This document shows positions 6,316-64,000 of a stretch of 64,000 nucleotides of DNA, one piece after another. Every line of letters starts with the position of its first letter. Within the stretch, counting starts at the first letter, position 1. A program made the translations under genes and the position numbers. The notes under the pieces are model-generated. The model made no database searches. It had not been told where the DNA came from and saw nothing but the letters and a program-made list of their open reading frames with translations. This stretch comes from Halomonas sp. (GTDB lineage Bacteria > Pseudomonadota > Gammaproteobacteria > Pseudomonadales > Halomonadaceae), in the NCBI RefSeq assembly GCF_017515565.1, contig NZ_JAFWFN010000026.1, positions 16,126 to 80,125 of the forward strand, read 5' to 3'.

Positions 6316-8005
6316 TAAGAAGGCTACGCAGCAGCGCGCGCAGTTTGCCGGGTCGTACCGGCTTGTTTAACTGTGGTACACCAGCATGGCGTAGGCGGCG
6401 CTGCCAGTGGTCGGAGCGGTCGGCACTGATAATGGCCGCTGGCAAGCGCGGGTCGTGCCAGTGTTGGCGCAACTGTCGAATGGCCTCTAGGCCAGTGACG
6501 TTATCATCCAGATGCAGGTCAACCAACAGCATATCCGGTGCCTCCGGGCAGGCTTTGGCAGCATCGATCTCCAGGGCGGTGTCACAGCTGATCTGCCATT
6601 CACTTAGCAGCAGTGACATACCTTCCAGAATCGTTGGCTCGTTATCCAGGATCAGTACGCGAAGTCCTTTGAACTCAGCTTCAGCGGAGGGCGGCGTGGT
6701 GGGCGCGGGAGCTTGGCTGAAGGAGATGCCGCTGGCTCGGGGCACCTCAACCGCAAAACAAGAGCCTCTGCCGGCTGCTGAACGAACAGAAAGCGGGTGC
6801 TCCAGGCGCTGGCTAATTCGCTCCACAATGGCAAGCCCCAGGCCAACGCCCTGGCGATCCCGCGCGCGGGTGGCGTTGAGCTGGTGAAACTCGCGGAAAA
6901 TAAGCTGGTAGTCGCTTTCGGGAATGCCGATACCACTATCGACTACTTGAATAGCTAGGCTGTCGTCATTCTGGCGGCGAACGCCCAGGCAGATGCCGCC
7001 ACGCTGGGTATAGCGGCAGGCGTTAGCAAGGAAGTTGCGCACAATGCGGCTGAGTAGGTAAGGGTCGCTGGTCACTGCTTGATGAGAAGGCACATAGCGC
7101 AGCGTTAGCCCTTTACGTTGCGCCACTGGAGCAAACTCATCGACAAGATTGCTAAGAATGTCATCGAGCTTAAAGTGGCGTAGCTGAGGCTGTACCTGGC
7201 CGTGATCCAGACGGGAGATATCGAGCAGGTCGGAAAGTATTGCTTCAGCGCCTTCTAGTGAGTTTTGCACGCTCTCAATCAGGGCTAAATTATCGCTGTC
7301 GGTCAGCCGCTCCTGCAGTGAGGCTACCAGTAGTCGTGCAGCGTTCATGGGTTGCAGCAGGTCATGGCTAGCGGCGGCTAGGTAGCGGTCTTTGCTTTGG
7401 TTTGCAAACTCAGCGGCGTCGCGTGCGCTTCTAAGCGCCTCATTGAGCCGCTCAAGCTCCTGGGTGCGTTCAGCAACCCGGGCTTCCAAGTGGGCGTTTA
7501 GTGTTTCTAAGTGCTGGCGGGCGCGCTCACGCTCGGTGATATCTGCTACAAAGCCTTCGATGAGATCTTCATCTCCGGCAAGCTCGGCGGGTTTTTTTAT
7601 CAGCGTAACGGCTACTGGTACTTGGCGGCCAGAGGCCGCCTGCAGCAAAGTGGTGTGGCCCGTTACGTGGCCGTGGGCGAGCAGTAGGTCGCGCAGCTGC
7701 TGGCCAGTTGTGCTACTGACAAATAGGGCATCGAAACGTGCGCAGCGCTCTAAAGTATGCGTCACGCAGGGGTCGTCGAGCATGGCGGCAAGCGCCGGGT
7801 TAGCGGCGCGCAGTTTGCCGGAAAGCGACGCCTGGAAAATACCGTGTAACGCGTTTTCAAATAGCCACTTATAGCGATTGCGCTCGACTTCAAGCTCTTC
7901 TAAACGCACAGAAAGCTCGCGATAGTAACTTTTACGCGCCGACTGCTGACCTAGCCCGAGCAGGTCGCTGACCGAAAAGCCCGAGGGGTCGCTGGCTTTT
8001 TTCAT
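6308..8005 (-). CDS. PAS-containing hybrid sensor histidine kinase (ErcS'/NahK-like)
   Basis: Sensor kinase of 565 residues without membrane segments, so cytoplasmic. Order of domains: N-terminal coiled coil (about 25-45), PAS (about 45-160), second coiled coil (160-205), dimerisation domain with phospho-acceptor H214 in AAASHDLLQPM, ATPase domain with N box NFLANACRYT, G1 box VVDSGIGIP and G2 box GVGLGLAI, and a C-terminal receiver domain with D496. Its ATG overlaps the stop of the ercA-like gene (ATGA) and its end overlaps pqqF. The context points to the alcohol/PQQ signalling kinase that feeds the response regulator at 3.4 kb. The signal is unknown. Confidence 0.87.
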   Translation of the reverse strand: MKKASDPSGFSVSDLLGLGQQSARKSYYRELSVRLEELEVERNRYKWLFENALHGIFQASLSGKLRAANPALAAMLDDPCVTHTLERCARFDALFVSSTTGQQLRDLLLAHGHVTGHTTLLQAASGRQVPVAVTLIKKPAELAGDEDLIEGFVADITERERARQHLETLNAHLEARVAERTQELERLNEALRSARDAAEFANQSKDRYLAAASHDLLQPMNAARLLVASLQERLTDSDNLALIESVQNSLEGAEAILSDLLDISRLDHGQVQPQLRHFKLDDILSNLVDEFAPVAQRKGLTLRYVPSHQAVTSDPYLLSRIVRNFLANACRYTQRGGICLGVRRQNDDSLAIQVVDSGIGIPESDYQLIFREFHQLNATRARDRQGVGLGLAIVERISQRLEHPLSVRSAAGRGSCFAVEVPRASGISFSQAPAPTTPPSAEAEFKGLRVLILDNEPTILEGMSLLLSEWQISCDTALEIDAAKACPEAPDMLLVDLHLDDNVTGLEAIRQLRQHWHDPRLPAAIISADRSDHWQRRLRHAGVPQLNKPVRPGKLRALLRSLLNG

Positions 8006-35268: not shown

Positions 35269-36252
35269 ATGCGTACACGCATTTTTACTCCGCTGCTTTT
35301 AGCCACTGCCTGTAGTCTCGCTGCCACGGCACATGCCGCCCAGTGGACAATGGCGACTCCCTACGGCGATGCCAGCTTCCATACCCAAAACACCAAGCAG
35401 TTTGCAGAGGATGTGGCGGAAGCGACCAATGGCGAGCTGACCATTACGGTTCACAGCGGTGGTTCGCTAGTCTCCCATGGTGAAATTAAACCATCGGTAC
35501 GCCGTGGCACGATTGACGCGGGAGAGGTGTTCCTTTCGGTACTCTCTAACGATGATCCGATTTTTGAAGTTGACACGTTGCCGGGCGTGGCGGGTAGCTA
35601 CGAAGATGCCTACGCCTTATGGGAAGCCACTAAGCCAATGATTACCGAGCTGTTCGCTTATGAAGGACTGGTTCCTTTATACGCCGTTGCTTGGCCTGCC
35701 CAGGGCATTTACACCGCTAAGCCGCTAACAGACCCCGCGCAGTTTGAAGGCTTACGCGTTCGAGCGCCGAACATCAATACCCAGCGCTTTGTGAATAACC
35801 TGGGCGGCAGCCCAACCGAAACCGAAGAGTCTGATATCCCCACGGCATTTAGCACCGGCCGCGTAGACGCCATGATTACGTCAAGCGCGACCGGCAACGC
35901 CATGGCTGCCTGGGATTATGTATCCGACTACACCGACGCCAACCTGTGGCTGCCTAAGAATATTGTGTTCATGAGTCAGCGTAGCTTTGACCGTTTAGAC
36001 GATGCCACGCAAGAAGCACTGCTGGAAGCAGCTGCGCGGGCTGAAAAGCGTGGCTGGCAGATGAGCCGCGATAACAATGACACCAGTACGGCAGCGCTCA
36101 TTGACAACGGCGTCACGGTTTCTGAACCGAATGAAGCCGTTGCCGATGCGTTACGAGCCGCTGGCGCAGAGCTATTTGCCGACTGGGAAGCGCGTGCTGA
36201 TGACGAAGCCAAGCAAGCGTTAGAAGCCTACCGCGAGCAGCTTTCGAACTAA
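35269..36252 (+). CDS. dctP: TRAP transporter substrate-binding protein DctP
   Basis: Periplasmic binding protein of 327 residues with a clear signal peptide (LLLATACSLAATAHAA). DctP core: SGGSLVSHGEIKPSVRRGTIDAGE, LRVRAPNINTQRFVNNLGGSP, and the ligand-side stretch GRVDAMITSSATG. AGAGGA lies 8 bases before the ATG at 35269, so this start is chosen over the ATG at 35248 that overlaps the LysR stop. Linked to pxpABC, it may belong to the pyroglutamate-binding DctP group described in Bordetella (DctP6/DctP7). The ligand is inferred, not seen. Confidence 0.9.
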   Translation: MRTRIFTPLLLATACSLAATAHAAQWTMATPYGDASFHTQNTKQFAEDVAEATNGELTITVHSGGSLVSHGEIKPSVRRGTIDAGEVFLSVLSNDDPIFEVDTLPGVAGSYEDAYALWEATKPMITELFAYEGLVPLYAVAWPAQGIYTAKPLTDPAQFEGLRVRAPNINTQRFVNNLGGSPTETEESDIPTAFSTGRVDAMITSSATGNAMAAWDYVSDYTDANLWLPKNIVFMSQRSFDRLDDATQEALLEAAARAEKRGWQMSRDNNDTSTAALIDNGVTVSEPNEAVADALRAAGAELFADWEARADDEAKQALEAYREQLSN

Positions 36253-36268
36253 GCCGTTAGCGACGTTA

Positions 36269-36293
36269 AAGAGGCGGCGTTTTGCCGTCTCTT
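36269..36293 (+). terminator. Intercistronic hairpin between dctP and dctQ
   Basis: Stem AAGAGGCGGC / GCCGTCTCTT (one G-U pair) with a GTTTT loop and no T-tract. In TRAP operons such a hairpin probably protects the abundant dctP message and lowers permease expression rather than fully ending transcription. Confidence 0.6.
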
Positions 36294-36322
36294 CCATCCA
36301 CGCGCTCTAAGAGGCTGCGAAC

Positions 36323-36886
36323 ATGACGTTTAAATTCGACAAACTCTACCGCCTTGGTGCTTGGGGTGCTGCGGCGTGCATGGTCGCTATCTGTGCGCTA
36401 ATTGCACTTCAAGTCACCTTTCGCCTGATTGATGCGCTGCTGATTTTGGTAGGGTTAGGCCGCTTGGGCCTTAGCATCACGGGTGTGTCAGAAATGGCGG
36501 CCTACCTACTGGTCGGTGCTACCTTTCTCGGGCTTGCCTACACTTTCGTGCATCACGCGCATATTCGCGTGACGCTGTTGATTTCGCGGTTGCCATCGGC
36601 AATTCGTGTTTGGTTTGAAGTATTTGGCTTGATTGTTGCCTTAGCTATCGGCCTGCTACTCGGTTACGGCTTGATTGAGTTGGCGCGAGAGAGCCTTCAG
36701 TACAACGATGTCTCATCGGGCTTTTTATCGATTCCCCTATGGATTCCCCAAACTGTTCTGGCTACCAGCGTAGGGCTACTGTGCTTGGCGCTTGCTGAAG
36801 CCCTGTTGATGGCGCTGCGTATCGCCGCTCGTGACCCCTCTAGTTTTCGTGAGGCCACAGCGATTGATGACAGCGAGACGCACTAA
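36323..36886 (+). CDS. dctQ: TRAP transporter small permease DctQ
   Basis: Membrane protein of 187 residues with four predicted helices (about 12-38, 55-75, 95-120, 138-165), the normal DctQ topology. Typical features are SITGVSEMAAYLLVGATFLGLAYTFVHHAHIRV and the loop before SIPLWIPQTVLA. It lies between dctP and dctM. Confidence 0.88.
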   Translation: MTFKFDKLYRLGAWGAAACMVAICALIALQVTFRLIDALLILVGLGRLGLSITGVSEMAAYLLVGATFLGLAYTFVHHAHIRVTLLISRLPSAIRVWFEVFGLIVALAIGLLLGYGLIELARESLQYNDVSSGFLSIPLWIPQTVLATSVGLLCLALAEALLMALRIAARDPSSFREATAIDDSETH

Positions 36887-36916
36887 GCCTGAGCCTTCTA
36901 CCCTGGAGAATCTCCC

Positions 36917-38221
36917 GTGTTACTACTAAGTTTAGCGACTGTTTTTACCCTGGTACTGCTCCTGGGCAGTGGGGTGTGGATCGCCATCGCGCTGATGGGG
37001 ACTGCATGGATTGCGTTGGAGTTTTTTAGCCCCTTTTCACCGGGTCCGATTTTAGCCTCCGATTTTTGGGGCGCAAGCTACGGCTGGGATCTAACCGCGC
37101 TGCCGATGTTTATCTGGATGGGTGAGATACTGTTTCGCTCTGGGCTTGCTGACAATATGTTCCGGGGGCTCTCCCCTTGGCTTAACCGGTTACCGGGACG
37201 CTTGCTACATACCAATATTATTGGCAGCGGCATGTTTGCAGCAGTGTGTGGTTCGTCAGCGACGACCTGCGCAACTGTGGGCAAAATGACCTTGCCAGAG
37301 CTTGAGCGCAGAGGCTACGACAGCAATATGGCGATTGGTACGTTAGCCAGCGCCTCTACCCTGGGGCTATTAATCCCCCCCTCTATCGTGTTGATTGTTT
37401 ACGGCGTGGTCACTGAGCAGTCTATTTCGCGCTTGTTTATGGCGGGTATCGGGCCGGGTCTGATGATCCTTGCCATGTTTATGACGTATCTGGTTCTCTG
37501 GGCCTTATTGAAAGGTAACCGAAACGGCTTAACCGGCGCTGATGAATCAAGCATGAGCTTCGCTGAAAAGCTGCGCAATACCTGGGCGTTGTTACCTATT
37601 TTGCTGCTAATTGGCGGAATCATTGTATCGATTTATGGGGGGCTTGCGTCGCCTACGGAAGCGGCGGCGGTGGGCGTTGTGCTATCCATGGTCATCGCCC
37701 GGTTTAACGGCCATTTTAATCGCGAGATATTTACCAGCTCGCTATTCGCCGCCGTGCGTACCGCGTGCATGATTGGGTTTATTATTGCGGGTGCTTCGTT
37801 TCTCACCTCCGCCATGGGCTTTACCCAGGTGCCCATGCAACTGGCGCGCACCATCGGTGAGATGGGGCTTTCGCCGACCATGTTGCTGATAGCGTTAACG
37901 CTGTTACTGCTAATCATGGGCTGCTTTCTTGACGGTATTTCACTGATTCTGCTGGTTACCGCGATTATTATGCCAGTGGTGAGTGCGGCTGGGTTTGATC
38001 TGATTTGGTTCGGTATTTACCTGGTGATCGTCGTGGAAATGTCGCAGATAACGCCCCCCGTAGGGTTTAACCTGTTTGTTATCCAGGGGTTAACGGGTAA
38101 AGATATTTTTACGATTACCAAAGCGACGCTGCCTTTCTTCCTGCTCATGGCACTGGCTATTGCGCTAATGCACATCTTTCCGGAGATCGCGCTTTATCTA
38201 CCCCAGGCCATGAATCGTTAG
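36917..38221 (+). CDS. dctM: TRAP transporter large permease DctM
   Basis: Membrane protein of 434 residues with about 12 helices that carries solute with sodium ions. Family motifs: CGSSATTCATVGKMTLPELERRGYD, LGLLIPPSIVLIVYGVVTEQSI, SPTEAAAVGVV and a C-terminal SQITPPVGFNLFVIQG. The start is GTG at 36917 after TGGAGAA. Last gene of the LysR-dctPQM unit. Confidence 0.93.
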   Translation: MLLLSLATVFTLVLLLGSGVWIAIALMGTAWIALEFFSPFSPGPILASDFWGASYGWDLTALPMFIWMGEILFRSGLADNMFRGLSPWLNRLPGRLLHTNIIGSGMFAAVCGSSATTCATVGKMTLPELERRGYDSNMAIGTLASASTLGLLIPPSIVLIVYGVVTEQSISRLFMAGIGPGLMILAMFMTYLVLWALLKGNRNGLTGADESSMSFAEKLRNTWALLPILLLIGGIIVSIYGGLASPTEAAAVGVVLSMVIARFNGHFNREIFTSSLFAAVRTACMIGFIIAGASFLTSAMGFTQVPMQLARTIGEMGLSPTMLLIALTLLLLIMGCFLDGISLILLVTAIIMPVVSAAGFDLIWFGIYLVIVVEMSQITPPVGFNLFVIQGLTGKDIFTITKATLPFFLLMALAIALMHIFPEIALYLPQAMNR

Positions 38222-38234
38222 CCGTTAGTGGCGC

Positions 38235-39767
38235 TCACTCCTCACCATAGATAGCAATGCCGCCCCGGCCAGAGCGTTTGATGAAGTACATGCTCTTGTC
38301 GGCGGCATCTATTAGTTCGCGTTCATTACCAAAGTCGCCATCACATAAGCAGGCCACGCCGATGGAGACCGACACATAAATCGGTTGTTGGTCAACGTTG
38401 GCCATTGGACGCTCTTGGAGGTGCTGGGTAATGCGTTGGGAGAAAAGCTTGGCCGATTGGGCCGTCTCGTCAGGCAGGATAATTAAAAACTCTTCACCGC
38501 CGTAACGTCCGGCTAAATCACCTGCGCGAATCAGTGATGACAGGGTGTGGCCAAAGTGCTCAAGTACTTGGTCGCCGGTGCGGTGGCCATGCCGGTCGTT
38601 GAGCGACTTAAAGTGATCAAGGTCGATAAATACCACTGACATGGTTCGATTGTTTTCTCGGCAAAATGCAAAGCGCTCTCGTAATTGCTCCTCTAGCCAA
38701 GCGCGATTGGCAAGCTGGGTCAATGGGTCGAGACGGCTCTGTTTTTCAAGCGTTGCGTATTGCTGGTGCAAGCTTTCTAACCGCTGGCTCTGTTCGTCAA
38801 GCCGGGCGCTAAGGGTAAGCGTGTGCTGAAAAAGCAGTTGCTGCGCTTCAATGAGCAGTGCATGACTATCCATGTCAATGGGCTGAGCAAGCTGCAGTGT
38901 GTCAGCGACTATCGCTAAGTCTTCCTGCAAGCGTTGCAGTAAGTTGTCTAGCGTCAGTATGGGAGAGTTTTCCACCGCTGAGAGCTGGCGTAGCAGGGTG
39001 GCAAATGCACTGATCGGTTCCTCTGACAGCCAAGCATCGGCAATTGGCCCAGATAAACGTACACATAGTGTTGCCAGCTGATCAGTTAAAAAGCCATTGT
39101 GGCTTTGGTAAATCGCATCCACGAGGGAGGTGGGCATGCCCCATTTAGCCGCTAGCCAAGCGCCTACCAAGGTGTGGTCGCAACCAAACTGTTGCCGTTC
39201 AGTGCGGGCTGTTTGCTGGTGGGGAGCTTCACTATTAACGTAGAGCTTTTCCATTTCCTGAGGATAAGCTGCCTGCAGGGCTAAGATGCCAATATCCTGC
39301 AACAATGCCGCAGTAAAAGCGCTGCCCCTATGTGCAGGGCAAAGCTGGTGGGCTAAGCGACTTGCCACAATGGCCGAGATGATCGCGCGCTGCCAGATGC
39401 GAACTTGAGTTTTGTTCCCCTGGGCGTGGCGCAGCAGGCTAAAGCTCAAAACAGTGGCTAGGGTGGCATCAAGCCCCAGCCGTTGGGTGGCTTCGAGGCT
39501 GGTGTCTACAGGTTGACTGGAGTGAATAAAGTGCACGCTATTCGCCACCGCTATGAGCCGTGCGGTTAACGCCGGATCGTACTCAATTGTTTGTGCATAA
39601 TCGTGGAGAGTGGCATTCGGTGTGCGGGCAATCTCTAATATTTTTAACGCCACTGCTGGTAGCGTTGGCAGGCTTGAGCACCGTAAAAGTGCTTGACTGA
39701 CTAAACAGGGAAGCTCGTCAGTAAGCGCTATGTAGCGTGTTTTATCCACTGCTGAAAGGCTTGTCAT
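38235..39767 (-). CDS. HDOD-GGDEF protein, probable diguanylate cyclase
   Basis: Protein of 510 residues. An HDOD domain occupies about 20-215 (LPTLPAVALKILEIARTPNATLHDYAQTIEYDPALTARLI). After a coiled-coil helix comes a C-terminal GGDEF domain with intact active site GRYGGEEFLIILP and an inhibitory-site RAGD five residues before it. It should make cyclic di-GMP with product inhibition. The ATG at 39767 follows GGGAG; the frame extends 36 codons upstream without a good site. Divergent from the GGDEF-EAL gene. Confidence 0.87.
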   Translation of the reverse strand: MTSLSAVDKTRYIALTDELPCLVSQALLRCSSLPTLPAVALKILEIARTPNATLHDYAQTIEYDPALTARLIAVANSVHFIHSSQPVDTSLEATQRLGLDATLATVLSFSLLRHAQGNKTQVRIWQRAIISAIVASRLAHQLCPAHRGSAFTAALLQDIGILALQAAYPQEMEKLYVNSEAPHQQTARTERQQFGCDHTLVGAWLAAKWGMPTSLVDAIYQSHNGFLTDQLATLCVRLSGPIADAWLSEEPISAFATLLRQLSAVENSPILTLDNLLQRLQEDLAIVADTLQLAQPIDMDSHALLIEAQQLLFQHTLTLSARLDEQSQRLESLHQQYATLEKQSRLDPLTQLANRAWLEEQLRERFAFCRENNRTMSVVFIDLDHFKSLNDRHGHRTGDQVLEHFGHTLSSLIRAGDLAGRYGGEEFLIILPDETAQSAKLFSQRITQHLQERPMANVDQQPIYVSVSIGVACLCDGDFGNERELIDAADKSMYFIKRSGRGGIAIYGEE

Positions 39768-55983: not shown

Positions 55984-56667
55984 TTAGCCGCCGCGACAAA
56001 ACGGCCATACCTGATAAAACCTGCTGCATTGAAACTCTGCTTCACAGCTGTTGAGTTGGGCTTGATAGCGGTTAGCGCGTGCCGACACTTGGCTGCCCGC
56101 CCGCAGTACATGGGGTTTATTACGGTAGGTGCCCCGTTGGTAGCCGCCAGCGCCCTCATGATAAGCGTAGTAGAGATGTTGAGGGTTGTTCAGCGAGATG
56201 CCCGTTTGGGCGCGGGTACGGGTGTTGTACCAGCCAATAAAATCAGTGGCGTGCTTCATATGGGTACGCCGTGCAAAGGTGCTGCCTGCCTGCTCCCGGT
56301 ATTCGCCCCAAACCGGGTCTTGCGCTTGGGCGTAGCCTCTGGCGGATGAGGGCCGAGGGCCAGGAATGAAGCCTAGGTAGCGCTTTCGGTCTGGGCGCAC
56401 GTGGCTTCTAAACGACGACTCTTGCTGAATAAACGACATCTGCGTTGCAATGGGTGTGCCCCACTTCTCTTGGGAGTCTCGGGCGTAGTCGTACCAACTA
56501 GGCTGCTCGCGGAATATCTCGCAGATATTGCTTTGATCCTGCGGCGGGTTCGGTGCAAACGTGGCGCAGCCTGAAAGAAACAGCATAAGGCCTAGGATGG
56601 CCCATAGTCGCCACGTTGTGAGCATAGATGGGGAGCGTGTATCAAAACGATCAACAGGGCAGTGCAT
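55984..56667 (-). CDS. Lipoprotein with a lytic transglycosylase (SLT) domain
   Basis: Protein of 227 residues. A hydrophobic segment ends in lipobox LSGC (LGLMLFLSGCATF), so it is an outer- or inner-membrane lipoprotein in the periplasm. The rest is an SLT-like lysozyme domain with catalytic glutamate in MSFIQQESSFRS, RGYAQAQDPVW, and YYAYHEGAGGYQRG. It cleaves peptidoglycan glycan strands. The ATG at 56667 follows AAGGA and gives a long N-region; an ATG at 56625 lacks a ribosome site. Confidence 0.85.
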   Translation of the reverse strand: MHCPVDRFDTRSPSMLTTWRLWAILGLMLFLSGCATFAPNPPQDQSNICEIFREQPSWYDYARDSQEKWGTPIATQMSFIQQESSFRSHVRPDRKRYLGFIPGPRPSSARGYAQAQDPVWGEYREQAGSTFARRTHMKHATDFIGWYNTRTRAQTGISLNNPQHLYYAYHEGAGGYQRGTYRNKPHVLRAGSQVSARANRYQAQLNSCEAEFQCSRFYQVWPFCRGG

Positions 56668-56780
56668 GGAAAATCCTTGTGGATAAGTTTTTAAGAAAAG
56701 CTTTTTATGAATAAACGTTTATCGATATATTTTATCAATATGGTAATCGAGTCGCTTACATCTCTCTTCTAAAACCTCGA

Positions 56781-58199
56781 CTAGCGAAGTAGCCCCTCTA
56801 AACAGCGGCGCAGCCGCTGAGCTTCACGTGCCAAGGTTTCCCCTGACAGCATGCCTACGCCCATGACCAGCCCAACCCTCTGGTCTGTTTTAGCACATAC
56901 GGGGCTAAGCGGACGCACAATCAAATGCTCTTTCATCAGTGCCTGAGCAAGCGCAACGTCGTTCACGCCGGGTTCAAATTCGATACATAAACTGATTGCA
57001 CTACAAGGTGGCGATACGTGGCGCACCCTAGGCAGTGAACGTAGCTGATCATGCAACACTTGCTGGCGACCCAAATAATCCGGATGAATACGACGACACC
57101 AAGCGTCTAAATCGCCGTCAAAAATAAACTGCGCTAGTACCGCTTGTTCAAGCATACGACCTTCACGGAATAGCTCGCTGCGCAGTCGGTTCATAGGGGC
57201 GGCCAAATGCCGTGGCACGACTAAGTAGCCAAGCCGTAAGCCTGGAAACATCATTTTGGAGAATGAGCCCACCAATAAATGGCGTTCCGAGTGTGGATCA
57301 AACAGCAGATTAGTATGATCGTCGCGGGTGAATTCGTAGTCATCTTCCACCACATAAGTGGGCGATAACGCATCACAGAACTGCTGCTTATGAGCCGCGC
57401 GGGTGGGCACGCTGAGTGGGTAGTGATGAGAGCCGGTCAAATAAGCGAGGGAAATGTTGCCAGCCGCCTTCGGAAAAGCATGCCCCTTATCAGGAAACCA
57501 GGGCACCATCTCAACCGTTAAGCCCGCGGCGGTAAACACATTGCGTGCCCCCCAGTAGCAGGGCGACTCCATCGCCACGGTGTCACCCACATCGGCCAAT
57601 GCCATGGCGCATAGCTCAATGCCGTTATGAGTACCGTCGGTGATGATAATCTGCTCAATATCACAATGAATATTGCGCCAGCGCGCCAGAAATTCACAGA
57701 TTGCGCGCTTAAGCGGCCCATAACCGCCGGTGGAATACGACAGCAACAAGGCATTTTGCGGCACGGTGACACTGGCATAGAGCTGACGCCACTTGCGCAT
57801 TGGAAACTGGGCGATATCCGGTATGCCAGGGACAAAGGCACCACTTTGCACCGTGCTCGCCCCTGGCCAGCGCAACACTTGTTGAGCACGTTTTGAAAGC
57901 TGAACGCTGGATGATGTGGGCGCGACAGATGCCTCTTTCTTACAGCTCCAAGTGCCCTTGCCATGAAACGTCGTCAACAGGCCTTCTTCAATAAGCGACG
58001 CAATGGCAAGAGACAGCGTGTGTCGAGCAACGCCCAACGTTGCTGCTAGCTGCCGGTGTGACGGCAGGCGAGTTTGGTTCGGCCACGCCTGGGTGACCGC
58101 CTGCCTCAAGGCTTGCTCTAACCGCACCTGTTTACTCAAGCGCTCAGGTTGCTGTGCATAGTGTTTTACGAGCTGTTGTAACACGTCCTGGCAAACCAT
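56781..58199 (-). CDS. gabR: MocR/GabR-type regulator (GntR helix-turn-helix fused to aminotransferase-like domain)
   Basis: Regulator of 472 residues. N-terminal GntR-type winged helix (TRLPSHRQLAATLGVARHTLSLAIASLIEEGLL) is joined to a class I aminotransferase-like domain with PLP lysine in GSFSKMMFPGLRLGYLVVP. In Bacillus, GabR of this family binds GABA through PLP and activates gabTD. Here it is divergent from gabD-gabT with a 9-base direct repeat between them, so the same role is strongly suggested. Other MocR proteins sense taurine or ectoine, so the effector is inferred. Confidence 0.87.
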   Translation of the reverse strand: MVCQDVLQQLVKHYAQQPERLSKQVRLEQALRQAVTQAWPNQTRLPSHRQLAATLGVARHTLSLAIASLIEEGLLTTFHGKGTWSCKKEASVAPTSSSVQLSKRAQQVLRWPGASTVQSGAFVPGIPDIAQFPMRKWRQLYASVTVPQNALLLSYSTGGYGPLKRAICEFLARWRNIHCDIEQIIITDGTHNGIELCAMALADVGDTVAMESPCYWGARNVFTAAGLTVEMVPWFPDKGHAFPKAAGNISLAYLTGSHHYPLSVPTRAAHKQQFCDALSPTYVVEDDYEFTRDDHTNLLFDPHSERHLLVGSFSKMMFPGLRLGYLVVPRHLAAPMNRLRSELFREGRMLEQAVLAQFIFDGDLDAWCRRIHPDYLGRQQVLHDQLRSLPRVRHVSPPCSAISLCIEFEPGVNDVALAQALMKEHLIVRPLSPVCAKTDQRVGLVMGVGMLSGETLAREAQRLRRCLEGLLR

Positions 58200-58246
58200 T
58201 CGTATCCTCTTACCGTCACGATACTTCCCGTTTAGTTAGTAAAACA

Positions 58247-58320
58247 GAAAAGTGGTCTGGTTGAACGAAAAAGTGGTGCATTCGCCTGCCAGCACATTAC
58301 TGCTAGTGTGCAGGTAATGT
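58247..58320. promoter_or_regulatory. Direct-repeat operator and inverted repeat in the gabR-gabD region
   Basis: AAAAGTGGT occurs at 58248-58256 and 58269-58277, exactly 21 bases apart (two helical turns), on the same face of the helix, as in known GabR/MocR operators. A perfect inverted repeat ACATTAC (58294-58300) / GTAATGT (58314-58320) follows and ends about 20 bases before the gabD start. Regulator binding is inferred. Confidence 0.65.
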
Positions 58321-58339
58321 TGTAAACCAGGAGAAGATC

Positions 58340-59791
58340 ATGAGCTTTATCGAAAAGTGGTTACACGATGCCGTCCCTGCCCTGGTGGGCGACGAGTGGC
58401 GCAAGGGCCAGCAGACCTTTGCCGTCGATAACCCCGCTACCGGCGAGACGATTGCCCGCGTTGCCGATTTAGGCGCTGATGACGCCCGCGACGCGGTGGC
58501 TGCCGCGTATGCCGCTGGGCCTGCCTGGCGCGCTACGCCAGTAAAACAGCGCTCAGCACTGCTGCGTCGCTGGTTTGAGTTAATCAATGAACACGCCGAC
58601 GACCTAGCCCGCCTGATGACCCTAGAGCAGGGCAAGCCCCTGGCGGAAGCCAAAGGCGAAGTGACTTACGGCGCCTCGTTTATTGAGTTTTTTGCCGAAG
58701 AAGCCAAGCGCATGGCCGGGGAAACCCTGCCCAGCCACGGTGCGGACAAGCGGCTACTGGTACTGCGCGAGCCGGTGGGTGTCGTCGCGGCGATTACCCC
58801 CTGGAACTTCCCGCTGGCAATGATTACCCGCAAGTGCGCTCCGGCCCTGGCCGCGGGCTGCACCGTAGTGATCAAACCTGCCGAAGCCACGCCGTTAACG
58901 GCGCTTGCCGCTGCTTACCTAGCCTTGGAAGCAGGCCTGCCTGCGGGCACCATTAACGTCATTACTGCATCAAAACCGGCAGCAGTGGGCGAAGTGCTCA
59001 CCACGGATTCACGGGTGCGCAAAGTCTCGTTTACCGGCTCGACTCCGGTGGGTAAACACTTGCTTGCCCAGTGCGCCAGCACGGTGAAGAAAACCGCTAT
59101 GGAACTGGGCGGCAACGCGCCTTTTATCGTTTTTGACGATGCCGATGTGGACGCCGCTGTAAACGGTGCCATTGCCTCCAAATTCCGCAACGCCGGGCAA
59201 ACCTGCGTGTGTACCAACCGCTTCCTGGTGCAGGACGGCGTTTACGATGCGTTCGTCAGCAAGCTCACCGAGCGCGTTAGCGCGCTGAAGGTAGGCGATG
59301 GTTTAACACAAGACAGCACCATTGGCCCGCTGATTAACCAAGCGGCGGTGGAGAAAGTGCAGCGCCATGTAGATGACGCAGTGAATCAAGGCGCGCGGCT
59401 ACTCTGCGGCGGCAAGCCCCACGCCGCAGGTGAGCGCTTCTTCACGCCCACGGTGCTTGCAGATGTCACCACCAAGATGGCGGTGGCCGATGAAGAGACC
59501 TTCGGCCCAGTCGCTCCCGTATTCCGTTTCCATCGTGATGAAGAGGCGATTGAAATGGCCAACGATACGCCGTTTGGCCTAGCGGCCTACTTCTACGCCA
59601 CGGATTATCGCCGCATCTGGCGCACCATGGAGCAGTTGGAGTACGGCATGGTCGGCGTCAATGAAGGGTTGATCTCCACCGAGCTTGCGCCCTTTGGCGG
59701 TGTGAAAGAGTCCGGGTTGGGCCGTGAAGGTTCTCACCACGGGTTGGATGAGTTTACTGAGCTGAAATACGTCTGCGTTGGCGGTTTATAA
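58340..59791 (+). CDS. gabD: Succinate-semialdehyde dehydrogenase GabD
   Basis: NAD(P)-dependent aldehyde dehydrogenase of 483 residues that oxidises succinate semialdehyde, the second step of GABA breakdown, to succinate. Cofactor-site segment VAAITPWNFPLAMITRKCAPALAAGC, catalytic glutamate in MELGGNAPF and catalytic cysteine in NAGQTCVCTNRF are present. CAGGAGAAG precedes the ATG. It lies 8 bases before gabT in a two-gene operon. Confidence 0.94.
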   Translation: MSFIEKWLHDAVPALVGDEWRKGQQTFAVDNPATGETIARVADLGADDARDAVAAAYAAGPAWRATPVKQRSALLRRWFELINEHADDLARLMTLEQGKPLAEAKGEVTYGASFIEFFAEEAKRMAGETLPSHGADKRLLVLREPVGVVAAITPWNFPLAMITRKCAPALAAGCTVVIKPAEATPLTALAAAYLALEAGLPAGTINVITASKPAAVGEVLTTDSRVRKVSFTGSTPVGKHLLAQCASTVKKTAMELGGNAPFIVFDDADVDAAVNGAIASKFRNAGQTCVCTNRFLVQDGVYDAFVSKLTERVSALKVGDGLTQDSTIGPLINQAAVEKVQRHVDDAVNQGARLLCGGKPHAAGERFFTPTVLADVTTKMAVADEETFGPVAPVFRFHRDEEAIEMANDTPFGLAAYFYATDYRRIWRTMEQLEYGMVGVNEGLISTELAPFGGVKESGLGREGSHHGLDEFTELKYVCVGGL

Positions 59792-59799
59792 AGAGAACG

Positions 59800-61074
59800 A
59801 TGATGACTAACCAAGAATTGAATGACCTGAAAATCCGTTATGTAGCCAACGGTGCCGCCACGCCGACCACTCAGTTTGCCGAGCGTGCTGAAAACGCCGA
59901 GCTATGGGACGCCGACGGCAATCGCTGGATCGATTTCGCCGGCGGTATTGGCGTATTGAACCTGGGCCACCGCCACCCGAAAATCGTTGCTGCCGTCGAA
60001 GCGCAGCTTAAAAAAGTCATGCACACCAGTGCGGCGGTGATCTCCTACGCGCCCTACGTGCAGCTGTGCCAAAAGCTCTGCGAACTAAGCCCGGTGCGCG
60101 GCCCAGAGCGCAAAGCGATGCTGGTCAATACCGGTGCCGAAGCGCTGGAAAACGCCGTGAAGATTGCCCGCGCCGCCACTGGCCGCACCGGCATCATTAC
60201 GTTTGATGGTGCCTTCCACGGCCGCACCATGATGACCTTAGCCATGACCGGCAAGGTGCTGCCCTACAAGAACGACTTCGGCCCGATGCCGGGTGATGTC
60301 TTCCGCGCACCGTTCCCGAACCCCTTGCACGGCATCAGCGAAGAAGCCTCGCTGAACGCCATTCGCACGCTGTTCAAGACCGATATTGCCCCGCACCGCA
60401 CGGCGGCCATCGTGATTGAGCCGGTACAGGGCGAAGGCGGTTTCTACATTGCCTCACCGGACTACCTCAAAGCGCTGCGCGCACTGTGCGACGAGCACGG
60501 CATTCTGCTGATCGCCGACGAAGTGCAGTCTGGCTTTGCCCGTACCGGCAAGCTGTTTGCGCTGGAACACAGCGGCATTGAGGCGGACATCCTCACCACC
60601 GCCAAGAGCCTCGCTAACGGCATGCCGCTCTCTGCGGTGGTCGGCACCGCTAAGGTGATGGACGCTTCCGGCCCCAACTCCCTGGGCGGCACCTACAGCG
60701 GCAACCCGCTCTCCTGCGCCGCGGCGCTGGCGGTGATTGAGGTGATCGAAGAAGAGAACATCCTGGCGCGCAGCGAGCAGATGGGCAAAATGCTGGCCGA
60801 ACGTTTCGCCGTATGGGAAGAGCGCTTCCCTGCCGTAGCCCACGGTCGCCAGCTCGGCGCCATGGCCGCGTTCGAACTGCTCAATAGCGAAGGCAAGCCG
60901 GATACTCAGATGACCGGAGCGCTGTGCGCCAAAGCCCGCGAGAACGGCCTGATCCTGCTTTCTTGTGGTTTCTACGGCAACAGCATTCGGATTCTGGTGC
61001 CGCTGACGGTGTCGTCTGCGGTGTTGGAGGAAGGGTTGAGTATTATTGAGCAGTCGTTGGAAGCGCTTAGTTAA
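59800..61074 (+). CDS. gabT: 4-aminobutyrate aminotransferase GabT
   Basis: Class III PLP transaminase of 424 residues moving the amino group of GABA to 2-oxoglutarate. Motifs: FAGGIGVLNLGHRHPK, FDGAFHGRTMMTLAMTGK, VIEPVQGEGGFY, LIADEVQSGFARTGK, and the PLP-lysine stretch ILTTAKSLANGMPLSAVVG. Starts at one of two adjacent ATGs (59800 or 59803). Ends with a strong terminator, after which base composition changes. Confidence 0.95.
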   Translation: MMTNQELNDLKIRYVANGAATPTTQFAERAENAELWDADGNRWIDFAGGIGVLNLGHRHPKIVAAVEAQLKKVMHTSAAVISYAPYVQLCQKLCELSPVRGPERKAMLVNTGAEALENAVKIARAATGRTGIITFDGAFHGRTMMTLAMTGKVLPYKNDFGPMPGDVFRAPFPNPLHGISEEASLNAIRTLFKTDIAPHRTAAIVIEPVQGEGGFYIASPDYLKALRALCDEHGILLIADEVQSGFARTGKLFALEHSGIEADILTTAKSLANGMPLSAVVGTAKVMDASGPNSLGGTYSGNPLSCAAALAVIEVIEEENILARSEQMGKMLAERFAVWEERFPAVAHGRQLGAMAAFELLNSEGKPDTQMTGALCAKARENGLILLSCGFYGNSIRILVPLTVSSAVLEEGLSIIEQSLEALS

Positions 61075-61096
61075 TATCGTTTAGGTAGTACTAAGC

Positions 61097-61145
61097 CCGC
61101 CCATCGTTAGGCAGCGTAAGCTGTTGGCGATGGGCGGTTTTTTTT
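61097..61145 (+). terminator. Intrinsic terminator of the gabDT operon
   Basis: Long stem CCGCCCATCG / CGATGGGCGG with an inner CAGC / GCTG hairpin, followed by eight T. Confidence 0.93.
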
Positions 61146-61386
61146 GTGGGTGTTGAAAGCCTTTGGCTGAGATTGTCGGTTGCTATCGGTGCCGTATGCT
61201 AAGCTGGGTTTGGTGCGATAAATGCCCAAAGAAAACTTTTCGACAAATACAGCAGAAGCGCGAGTTTTGGATATGCAGGATTGTAAATATAAGAGACAAA
61301 TATTTGGGAGAATATGGCAGGCTGTGTTTTTCGGACAATCATGCCAGCGCGATCATCCAGTCATAGAACGCGCTGTCTAATACATG

Positions 61387-63034
61387 TTATGAGTAAAATT
61401 GATCACGAGTAAGGATAGGAAATGGCCCAAAAATTATTTTTAGATGCGCTTATTGGTAGGGATGACTTTGAGGTTCAAGATCAAGCTCACAATTCACAAG
61501 GTCCACATAAAACTACACTTAGTTACGGTGACTTTGAAATTCCGGGATTCTTCTTTTCTTCATTGAGGAAGCCTGATTTCCAGCGTGAAACAAACGAATG
61601 GGATGCTGAGAAGGTTAAGGATCTTGTTGAAAGTTTCTTAGATGGTGATTTGGTTCCAGCAATTATTCTATGGAAGTATGCTGACAGCTATACATTTGTG
61701 ATTGATGGAGCGCATAGAATTAGCGCAATTGCGGCATGGGTAAATGATGATTACGGTGATGGTAAAATTTCTAGAAAATTTTTCGATAATGCGATACCTG
61801 AGCAACAATTAGAGACCGCAAAGAAAGCTCGTCAAATCATTAATCAAGATATTGGTTCATATAAAGACTTCAAAGACACATTATTTGAACCAGAAATTGC
61901 TGCAGAGCATGTAAAGAAAAGGCTTAAGAACTTCGGTACAAGAGCTCTCCAGCTGCAATGGGTTGATGGAGATTCAAAAAAGGCTGAAAGTAGCTTTTTT
62001 AAAATTAATCAGAAATCAACGCCTATCAGTGATACAGAAATAGCAATATTGGAAGCTAGGAGAATGCCAGCGGGGTTATGCTCAAGAGCCATTTTGCGTG
62101 GCGGCCAAGGCTATAAATATTGGAATGTATTTAAGCCAGAATTATCTGAAAAAATTCAAAGTGAAGCAGAAACAATCAATGATTTAATTTTTAAGCCAGA
62201 ACTAATTACTCCTATAAAAACATTGGATCTACCTTTGGGTGGCAAAAATCACGCAAGCAATTCATTGGCTATGGTTTTTGAATTAGTAAAAATGCTCGGT
62301 GCTAATGCAAAGGATGAAGATACAAGTGGAGAGGAAACTCTTAAGGCGCTTTCCGGAATAAGAAAGTCACTTCAAAGAGTTAATGATATTCACCCTTCTT
62401 CGCTAGGTCTTCACCCAGCAATTTATATTTACAGCCAATCTGGTAATTTCAGGGTTAGTTGTTTTCATGCAGTAATTGTTTTCACTAAAGAATTAGTGGC
62501 TTCAAAAAAGCTGGATGTTTTTACTAAACATAGACAAGCATTTGAAAACACCATAATAAAATCAGACATGGTGATTCAACAGATTGTCAGAAAAGCTAGG
62601 CAAGCTAATAAAGCTGTAGTGCCTCTAGTTAGTTTTTTTCATGCCATTCTTGAAAAGCTCACCTTGCAAACTAACGCAGATGATGTTTTGAACGAATTAA
62701 GCAAGACTAATGAGTTTTCATACATTAACTTGGATGAAGTGAGCCATTCGGCAACAATTACATCATCGTTTTCGAAATCAACTAAAAGCGCAGCATATAT
62801 ATCTGAGGCTATAGTTAACGCACCAAAGTGCAAAATCTGTGGCGGTATTCTCCATAATAAATCGACCTCTATTGATCATAAGGTTCGTAAAGAAGATGGA
62901 GGTAATGGTTGTGTGAGTAATGCACAGCTATCTCATCCGTATTGTAATAGCACTTATAAGAACTAAAGCTTATAACAAAGCGCTGCTACGGAAAGCTTGG
63001 TCGCTGTACTCCCAAGTTGCTACAGAGCGCGGCG
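61387..63034 (+). mobile_element. Single integron-type gene cassette (nuclease gene plus attC), no integrase in the window
   Basis: The gene at 61422-62966 is tightly framed in the way of an integron cassette. It begins 36 bases after a G/TTATGA boundary (61386-61392). Its stop lies 3 bases before an attC-like site ending in G/TTAGGC (63034-63040). The cassette would run from one cut point to the other. Base use inside is visibly more AT-rich than the flanks. The left flank shows CAGCGCG-N17-CGCGCTG (61331-61372 area) but no convincing attC, so this may be an insertion at a secondary GTT site. No intI gene is present within the window. Confidence 0.7.
61422..62966 (+). CDS. DUF262-like/HNH nuclease protein, candidate anti-phage effector
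   Basis: Protein of 514 residues. The N-terminal part has the DUF262/ParB-like hallmarks: PDFQRETNEW at 51-60, VIDGAHRISAIAAW around 92-106 (the DGxxR nucleotide-handling motif), and FFKINQKSTPISDTEIAIL near 197-215. The C-terminal 45 residues form an HNH endonuclease with a zinc-like CKIC pair (470, 473), IDH (H486), N500 and SHPYCN (H505, C508). The same two modules build GmrSD type IV restriction enzymes and SspE, which attack modified or phage DNA. The ATG follows AAGGATAGGAA. The gene is AT-rich unlike its neighbours, a sign of transfer. The target is unknown. Confidence 0.82.
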   Translation: MAQKLFLDALIGRDDFEVQDQAHNSQGPHKTTLSYGDFEIPGFFFSSLRKPDFQRETNEWDAEKVKDLVESFLDGDLVPAIILWKYADSYTFVIDGAHRISAIAAWVNDDYGDGKISRKFFDNAIPEQQLETAKKARQIINQDIGSYKDFKDTLFEPEIAAEHVKKRLKNFGTRALQLQWVDGDSKKAESSFFKINQKSTPISDTEIAILEARRMPAGLCSRAILRGGQGYKYWNVFKPELSEKIQSEAETINDLIFKPELITPIKTLDLPLGGKNHASNSLAMVFELVKMLGANAKDEDTSGEETLKALSGIRKSLQRVNDIHPSSLGLHPAIYIYSQSGNFRVSCFHAVIVFTKELVASKKLDVFTKHRQAFENTIIKSDMVIQQIVRKARQANKAVVPLVSFFHAILEKLTLQTNADDVLNELSKTNEFSYINLDEVSHSATITSSFSKSTKSAAYISEAIVNAPKCKICGGILHNKSTSIDHKVRKEDGGNGCVSNAQLSHPYCNSTYKN

Positions 63035-63040
63035 TTAGGC
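62970..63040 (+). other. attC-like recombination site
   Basis: The 71-base imperfect dyad starts TTATAAC-AAA-GCGCT and ends AGCGC-GGC-GTTAGGC. The outer arms pair as TTATAAC/GTTAGGC and GCGCT/AGCGC, with unpaired spacer bases. The next arm pairs as GCTACGG with GCTACAG after a one-base offset. The tip is CTTGG (62996-63000) / CCAAG (63011-63015). This is the folded R''-L''-L'-R' layout of attC sites, resembling Vibrio-type repeats. Confidence 0.75.
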
Positions 63041-63248
63041 ACTTACCTGTTAACTGAGTAAGTAAATGTCGGTCGTTCCACAAATGAGACGTATGAGAGA
63101 TATCGATTGGCTGCATGACTGAAAAAGTTCGACAAGAAAGTCAGTAACGTGGCGAATAATGGGCTCCTTCTCATGGCGCATATGTTATGCCGTGCTGTTC
63201 CCTCGATGTGGTTGGGCCCTCTACTGACAAGCTAGCTAAGCACAACAG
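63041..63248. other. Unassigned 208-base segment between the attC-like site and the photolyase gene
   Basis: No gene longer than 18 codons starts here on the plus strand after the site (an ATG at 63067 opens a frame closed by TGA). A second GTTATGC heptamer lies at about 63187, but no matching left arm was found. It may be the remains of another cassette or the original chromosomal flank. Confidence 0.4.
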
Positions 63249-64000
63249 CTACATATCCCCCAACCCGCCCTCATCAAACAGCGAAAGCTGCTGACGATTG
63301 TCGGCCTTCGCTTTTTTAGCCCGCCGAGCAGGCGGCCGCCTCTGGCTAGCCAGCTTATCCACAATCGCTTGGCTTGATACCCTTGCTTCTGGCGTGCGGC
63401 GCAGCTCATACAACATCTTCTTCCAGTGGCGCGCCTCGGCTTCAAAATCGTTGGGGATGGGGTAGTCGATGCCGGGCTGGAAGCCGAAGCGTTTTTGCAG
63501 GCTTTCCGGCAGCGTCCAGGGTTTGGCGCGCCATTCCATGGGTAGGGGCGAAAGCTCTGGCACCCAGCGGGCGATGAACTCGCCGGTGGGGTCGTTATCT
63601 TCTGCTTGTTTAATCGGGTTATACACCCGCAGCGCGTTAGTGCCGGTGGCGCCTGCTTGCATCTGCACCTGGGGGTAGTGAATGCCCGGTTCATAATCAG
63701 TAAACAGCCGCGCTAAGTGCAATGCTGGCTCGTACCAGTGCAGCCCAAGGCCAAAGGTGGCGTGGGAGAGCAACATCGCGCGCATGCGAAAGTTGATCCA
63801 GCCGGTGGCGGTCAGGCTGCGCATGCAGGCATCCACCAGCGGCACGCCGGTTTGGCCACGTTTCCAAGCGATAAGGTTGGGATGCTCGGGGTCGCGTTCA
63901 CGTAGGCCGCGTAGCGCCGGGTGCAGCGTTTGCGACTCTATGCTCGGCTCACTTTCAAGCTTTTGAATAAAGTGGCAGTGCCAGTAAAGCCGTGAGGTAA
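63249..64000 (-). CDS. Cryptochrome/photolyase-family protein, 5' part beyond the window edge
   Basis: The C-terminal 250 residues of a FAD-binding photolyase-like protein; the frame is open to base 64000. FAD-domain motifs are clear: SRLYWHCHFIQKLESEP, WKRGQTGVPLVDACMRSLTATGWINFRMRAMLLSHATFGL, and YNPIKQAEDNDPTGEFIARWVPEL. The tail is basic (RRPPARRAKKAKADNR) and ends LFDEGGLGDM. It is either a DNA photolyase or a cryptochrome-like photoreceptor; the N-terminal antenna domain would decide and is not in view. Confidence 0.88.
   Translation of the reverse strand, partial: TSRLYWHCHFIQKLESEPSIESQTLHPALRGLRERDPEHPNLIAWKRGQTGVPLVDACMRSLTATGWINFRMRAMLLSHATFGLGLHWYEPALHLARLFTDYEPGIHYPQVQMQAGATGTNALRVYNPIKQAEDNDPTGEFIARWVPELSPLPMEWRAKPWTLPESLQKRFGFQPGIDYPIPNDFEAEARHWKKMLYELRRTPEARVSSQAIVDKLASQRRPPARRAKKAKADNRQQLSLFDEGGLGDM

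Follow-up and report, generated by a model that had tools for sequence, protein, structure and literature searches.

We analyzed a window of 64,000 nucleotides from Halomonas sp. (contig NZ_JAFWFN010000026.1, positions 16,126 to 80,125), in which a gene for a 514-residue protein with a DUF262 module and an HNH end lies between an aminotransferase gene and part of a photolyase-like gene (Table 1). A first-pass annotation had described this gene as AT-rich, stand-alone and delivered as a cassette. The reading frame was recovered exactly as described, and its guanine-plus-cytosine content was 0.370 compared to 0.608 in the neighboring gabT-like gene. The term cassette also proved literal: its junctions identify it as an integron cassette, with crossovers at G|TT on both sides.

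Table 1. Features of the cassette locus, in positions of the window
Feature	Position	Strand	Basis
Aminotransferase of the GabT/DavT kind, 424 residues (left flank)	59800..61074	+	Open reading frame; name inferred from sequence
attI-like site, a copy of the genus attI without adjacent integrase, ending CTAATACATG|TTA	61242..61389	+	Model R1
Left crossover G|TT	61386..61387	+	Homology with congeners ends here
Cassette gene, 514-residue DUF262-HNH protein	61422..62966	+	ATG start, uninterrupted open reading frame
DUF262/GmrSD_N domain, residues 48-207, predicted ParB/Srx-like fold	61563..62042	+	PF03235; models match BrxU, Noc, and SspE
Zinc-type HNH nuclease domain, residues 470-513 (C470, C473, D485, H486, N500, H505, C508, N509)	62829..62960	+	PF01844; superposition on 4h9d; conserved columns
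attC-like site: R'' TTATAAC, L''/L' GCGCT/AGCGC, R' GTTAGGC; right crossover G|TT at 63034/63035	62970..63040	+	Start of right homology
Right flank common to other genomes, 3' half of the landing site, starting TTAGGCACTT	63035..63240	.	Homology with congeners
Part of a photolyase/cryptochrome-like gene (right flank)	63249..63845	-	One open reading frame; conserved in congeners; name inferred from sequence

The full cassette gene was present in this genome only among 82 genomes of the genus, with weak local matches in three others, and positions 60700-61360 on its left were matched in 77 of the 82, some of the matches being paralogues. In BLAST comparisons, congeners retaining the left site were homologous up to 61382-61395, mostly to 61389. 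On the right, homology resumed at 63019-63035 in some congeners and only from approximately 63235-63275 in others, with other DNA in between. A more sensitive comparison revealed the right junction GCGTTAGGNACTT in six other genomes (G069, G007, G047, G049, G028, and G077), each time preceded by a different sequence; these copies differed in places, most in G049, and in G069 the left site was no longer kept at the locus. Thirteen 900-base segments downstream of the left site, from the window and 12 other genomes in which mostly the left junction alone was located, contained one similar pair, of 78 bases. Inspection of the inserts by eye indicated SIR2-like and HNH proteins, GNAT, toxin-antitoxin-like pairs, LysE, and an NTPase, all named from sequence. 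The same gabT-photolyase hotspot contained many conflict-like genes, among them SIR2-like, HNH, toxin-antitoxin-like, NTPase, and HerA-like ones (also named by eye), in G007, G009, G029, G031, G044, G049, G066, and G077, and is a place to look for new defense genes.

Within the cassette ends, the right GTTAGGC fitted the consensus GTTRRRY, the left GTTATGA departed from it in two letters, and R'' agreed with RYYYAAC in 5 of 7 letters. The L and R boxes paired in the predicted bottom-strand fold of the attC-like site. In a related copy from Cycloclasticus (L010), likeness to the window cassette began at the same GTTATGAG; the gene was followed by ACTCATAAC, a complementary R'' that is the reverse complement of GTTATGAG, and then by another attC-like site. 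This layout is what is predicted for a circular cassette carrying its own R'' and R'.

The left site was described by a sequence-only model, R1, built from 16 copies, none of which was picked for nearness to an integron integrase; it scored 116 bits at 61242-61390. We fetched intI (integron integrase) loci for 10 of the 21 genomes in which this gene was matched, and also the locus of the host genome. In 9 of the 10, an R1 match lay 57-82 base pairs from intI on the divergent strand, and in the tenth it lay 967 base pairs away. Based on this proximity, the R1 site was taken as the attI of the genus. R1 was found at E ≤ 1e-10 in at least 63 of the 82 genus genomes (a lower bound, given that stricter filters were applied), with one to ten copies each among the matches listed; none of 35 further genomes sampled within the class had a match. 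The 21 genomes with intI, out of 82, were those matched at E ≤ 1e-60. Cross-tabulation of the two, among the matches listed, placed 44 of the at least 63 R1-bearing genomes without an intI match at this threshold and 19 with one. Many attI copies, including that of the window, therefore stand without intI. No integrase lies beside the window's attI copy, and the locus is not a complete integron.

The sole intI match over cut-off in the host assembly was a remnant on a contig other than that of the cassette, with no adjoining attI match. This integrase of the host (G000 C18:95384-96322, L100:5376-6314; TIGR02249, 376 bits) contained one in-frame TAG, and a gene that appears transposase-like from its sequence was seen near it (L100:3616-4650). 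A second recurrent attI place was located near a gene for a 625-residue PAS-type protein in the host genome and in G049 and G069. Elsewhere in the host (G000 C17:20809-21600, L105:8810-9601), two attI-like copies in the same orientation were approximately 0.5 kilobases apart, and a 522-residue frame began at the end of the second. G049 harbored an attI-like copy approximately 90 base pairs from a divergent tyrosine recombinase (PF00589) of 211 residues, shorter than IntI (L098:1942-2077 and 2169-2804; L107:6027-6171 and 6259-6894), and copies or remnants of this recombinase were observed in L117, L119, L120, L126, L105, and L108. It could be a second recombinase that uses the attI-like site. 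The attI copies without intI may have arisen from recombination at attI, or from integrons that lost intI.

In the cassette protein, every motif named in the first-pass annotation was located: PxFQRxxxW as PDFQRETNEW (residues 51-60), DGAHR within VIDGAHR (93-99), INxxxxPISxxEI as INQKSTPISDTEI (195-207), and a C-terminal HNH site with CxxC, consisting of CKIC (470-473) and DH...GG...NxQxxHxxCN (485-509). Pfam searches gave PF03235 over its curated cut-off of 33.2 (E 2e-13, 51.3 bits) and, for this protein alone, PF01844 slightly under its cut-off of 21.4 (E 0.0016, 19.0 bits); PF07510 (DUF1524) did not match at E ≤ 1. Two predicted structure models both matched BrxU, SspE, and ParB/Noc, bearing out the expected DUF262-like fold and agreeing with the ParB/Srx fold that characterizes the DUF262/GmrS module. 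At the HNH end, 49 residues of the predicted structure superposed on 4h9d at 2.4 Å. No Foldseek match against the PDB reached E ≤ 0.001 with either model, and the ACE2 chains in several top rows for the first were dismissed as chance. A PDB sequence search yielded nothing meaningful, the best match being an enolase at E 0.39.

A genome scan recovered 41 relatives of the cassette protein. The closest, 83-91% identical, were from Cycloclasticus, Bowmanella, and Psychrobacter records, and a metagenome-assembled genome (MAG) of Symplocastrum carried one at 61% over its best segment. The remaining relatives, at approximately 30-52%, came from cyanobacteria, Clostridia, Nitrosomonas, Desulfobulbaceae, archaea-labelled MAGs, and others. 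We aligned 30 members, namely the cassette protein and the 29 of 41 relatives that were intact, over their length; left out were L022 (a near-duplicate), L023 and L036 (no N-terminus), L050 (contig end), and eight with interrupted frames (L025, L026, L034, L040-L043, and L045). A 41-sequence alignment also contained L022 and 10 of the 12 viral loci, with L147 and L150 excluded as interrupted or truncated.

Down to 30% identity, the 30 members were invariant at F53, Q54, R55, D95, G96, H98, R99, W106, N108-D113 (NDDYGD), I195, and N196, and in the HNH region at C470, C473, D485, H486, G493, G494, N500, Q502, H505, C508, N509, and K513. In the 41-sequence alignment, H486, N500, H505, C508, and N509 remained invariant and D485 nearly so. 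The QR, DGQQR, and FxxxN motifs listed in the accessible part of PMC12137116 had counterparts in FQR, DG[AS]HR, and F192 (nearly invariant) with N196. At E ≤ 0.01, PF01844 matched 29 of the 30 members, the best at 6.3e-8, GmrSD_N matched 25, and PF07510 matched none, in line with the earlier claim of an HNH end distinct from DUF1524. These matches across the family, together with the invariant key residues, indicate that the domain motifs are not due to chance. By sequence, the family appears to combine a DUF262 sensor with a PF01844 HNH domain in place of DUF1524. Among four close copies, the ratio of nonsynonymous to synonymous rates (dN/dS) could be computed for four of six pairs, with values of 0.025-0.048; dS was near or past saturation except in the Cycloclasticus pair (1.04). 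The gene is under purifying selection.

The first-pass annotation had also proposed that the subfamily may be undescribed, and this held only for the libraries searched: NCBIfam had no model matching the cassette protein, and PADLOC gave partial DUF262 matches only, over residues 50-134 (NsnA, 34 bits; PD-T4-2_A, 15.7 bits); NsnA was matched weakly and partially by all 30 members, the cassette protein covering 60 of 385 profile positions. However, plasmid records already name members as 'DUF262 domain-containing protein' or 'HNH endonuclease'. Members occurred in 47 plasmid records. Six of these, at 35-38% identity, were from Microvirga, Enterobacter, Burkholderia glumae (two), and Pantoea (two), and the other 41 were from Acinetobacter, at approximately 25% among the matches listed. 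Twelve viral contigs also carried members, as did two phages represented by four records: the inovirus Pf8 (44%) and the P2-like KL3 (37%). The Pf8 member (L151:8523-10061) is annotated 'putative repressor C', a label that looks wrong.

As to genomic company, eight annotated contexts (H1-H5, H7, H41, and H43, with H1 unannotated there) of the 51 records matched were viewed. On the two B. glumae plasmids, in effect one locus, the member adjoined an operon of a cyclic-oligonucleotide-based anti-phage signaling system (CBASS), and in the KL3 prophage it came after an EcoRII methylase, Vsr, and an EcoRII-C endonuclease. The annotated Enterobacter, Pantoea, and Acinetobacter plasmid contexts viewed had no known defense neighbor. 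A neighbor scan covered 137 of 277 computed neighbors at 36 genome loci (viral loci, L010-L012, and L022 being left out). PADLOC matches at E ≤ 1e-8, among the matches listed (25 of 58 families), included type I specificity proteins, a type II restriction endonuclease and methyltransferase, and Vsr. Pfam neighbors also included RecA and VIT/VWA proteins, and some contexts looked core-like. Since the tally was made without a matched control and contained RecA and VIT/VWA neighbors, we claim only the two independent annotated cases, CBASS and EcoRII, as defense company. The view that some homologues lie beside defense genes is supported by these two cases. Homologues were not confined to core contexts, given the plasmids and phages.

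Promoter and terminator scans of the locus found one promoter-like site, on the minus strand, and no terminator-like site; by eye, a stem followed by a T-run was seen near 61097-61146. Rfam over 60000-64000 gave nothing beyond one sub-threshold snoRNA match. Further away, positions 36001-39000 displayed an unusual AT skew (-0.21, -0.18) relative to the remaining window.

We propose, with a probability of roughly 0.6, that the locus is an integron cassette inserted at a chromosomal attI without intI, as its junctions show, and that it encodes, by analogy with characterized enzymes, a compact, stand-alone, type-IV-like restriction nuclease. Recombination of attI with attC would have placed the cassette into an attI copy that lacks its own integrase. 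The protein would probably work like GmrSD; the accessible part of PMC10952713 reviews GmrSD, BrxU, and SspE as cases of nucleoside-triphosphate-driven sensing and cleavage, and GrwAB is a further analogue (PMC12137116, in part). On this model, the DUF262 module would bind and hydrolyze a nucleoside triphosphate through a pocket of FQR and DGxHR and would sense foreign, probably base-modified, DNA. Sensing would release the C-terminal zinc-HNH domain, which would nick or cut the sensed DNA and so protect against phages. A modification-dependent enzyme would fit, because the cassette carries no methyltransferase. Such a protein would most likely serve as a compact weapon directed at phages and plasmids.

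The chief alternative is an effector that acts against plasmids or harms its own cell (abortive). Incoming or replicating plasmid or phage DNA would activate it, DNA breakage would harm the carrier too, and selection would act on plasmid carriage or cell death rather than on the clearing of modified phage DNA. According to the accessible part of PMC8544851, the principal mutations that relieve SOS induction and the cost of plasmids in Pseudomonas fluorescens are loss-of-function changes in PFLU4242 (DUF262-DUF1524). Members occur on plasmids and in phages, and frames were interrupted in 8 of the 41 genome relatives, as costly genes would show, although these may be assembly errors or ordinary decay. 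The sequence offers no separation of this effector from type-IV restriction, and we consider it unlikely. Still less probable is a gene for control between elements, such as superinfection immunity or prophage regulation, in place of general host defense. The repressor label in Pf8 and the members in viral contigs and two phages would suit such a role, but the label is an annotation, H486, N500, and N509 are invariant in all 41 aligned sequences, and the copies on plasmids, in the integron, and in chromosomes do without a prophage.

Several observations count against the integron cassette itself. The assembly contains no intact integrase, and R'' and the left boundary are off consensus. The attC hairpin energy was no better than that of shuffles (z +1.58 including the flanks, +1.36 after trimming, and +1.28 on the top strand); in the same test, the stretches from G077 and G049 scored +2.17 and -1.70, respectively. 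No empty landing site was found in the 82 genomes with the joined pattern at up to 3 mismatches. Yet entry of the gene between its gabT-like and photolyase-like neighbors by another route (a transposon or homologous recombination), with GTTA/GTTAGGC present by chance, is very improbable: homology breaks within a few bases of G|TTA on the left and resumes at or just before G|TTAGG on the right around differing inserts, the left site lies beside intI in 9 of 10 loci and is unmatched in the 35 other class genomes, and the copy in Cycloclasticus has the same 5' boundary together with the complementary R''. Chance GTTA boundaries were rejected on this junction evidence.

A DNA nuclease encoded by one gene of approximately 1.5 kilobases, and carried by plasmids and phages as well as in an integron cassette, would be very cheap restriction to acquire. 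A broader proposal, which we make tentatively and at somewhat below even odds, is that the genus spreads its integron chromosome-wide. Full-length attI copies without intI, at the gabT/photolyase and PAS-type loci, would be fixed landing sites for differing, often conflict-like cassettes, served in trans by an integrase now lacking in most members; a new DUF262-HNH subfamily would be part of the same picture. Such dispersed sites would let cassettes occupy the first position at several loci simultaneously, not lie silent in one long array, and would offer an alternative answer to the expression of cassettes far from a promoter. They would also make it testable whether integron integrases act in trans on distant chromosomal sites. 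We regard them as the most novel part of the findings, and no matching description was found in the open-licence literature searched.

Proteins that join a DUF262 module to a His-Me nuclease are already known (PMC4619093, in part). Strict GmrSD enzymes cleave glucosylated-hydroxymethylcytosine or other modified DNA and depend on nucleoside triphosphates in doing so. In the GmrSD family (GmrSD, Eco94GmrSD, BrxU, and GrwA/TgvB), the C-terminus is DUF1524, whereas the cassette protein ends in a short zinc-type PF01844 HNH domain (CxxC...HxxC) and, failing to match PF07510, is not a strict GmrSD member. Its family also has DG[AS]HR where GmrSD has DGQQR, and conserved signatures of its own: W[VI]NDDYGD, plus LDALIxR(E/D)D close to the N-terminus. 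Comparison with GmrSD and BrxU would show whether DUF262 drives a different HNH module, that is, a nuclease swap on a common sensor. PFLU4242 is alike in joining DUF262 to a His-Me nuclease and differs in its DUF1524 C-terminus (PMC8544851). The PADLOC systems NsnA and PD-T4-2_A are alike in the weak, partial DUF262 match at residues 50-134. SspE and DndI, effectors that sense phosphorothioation, act with Ssp or Dnd modification genes, and none was seen in the cassette; by eye, no phosphorothioation gene was present among the open reading frames of 56000-64000, no genome-wide dnd/ssp search having been made.

Chromosomal and mobile integrons reportedly carry phage-defense cassettes (Darracq and Kieffer, both 2025). 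Defense cassettes that include compact type IV enzymes, smaller in integrons, are reported in the accessible part of PMC12409362; neither this part nor that of PMC13092281 names a DUF262-HNH family, and no cassette family of this kind was found described in the open-licence literature searched. The present locus likewise holds a putative defense gene as a cassette, here in an attI copy without an integrase. Clusters of attC sites without an integrase (CALIN; PMC7923331, in part) likewise hold cassettes away from intI, and attI-type cassettes (PMC12901181, in part) likewise place attI copies outside the usual position. Unlike in either, full-length attI-like sites here recur genus-wide at chromosomal loci as putative landing sites.
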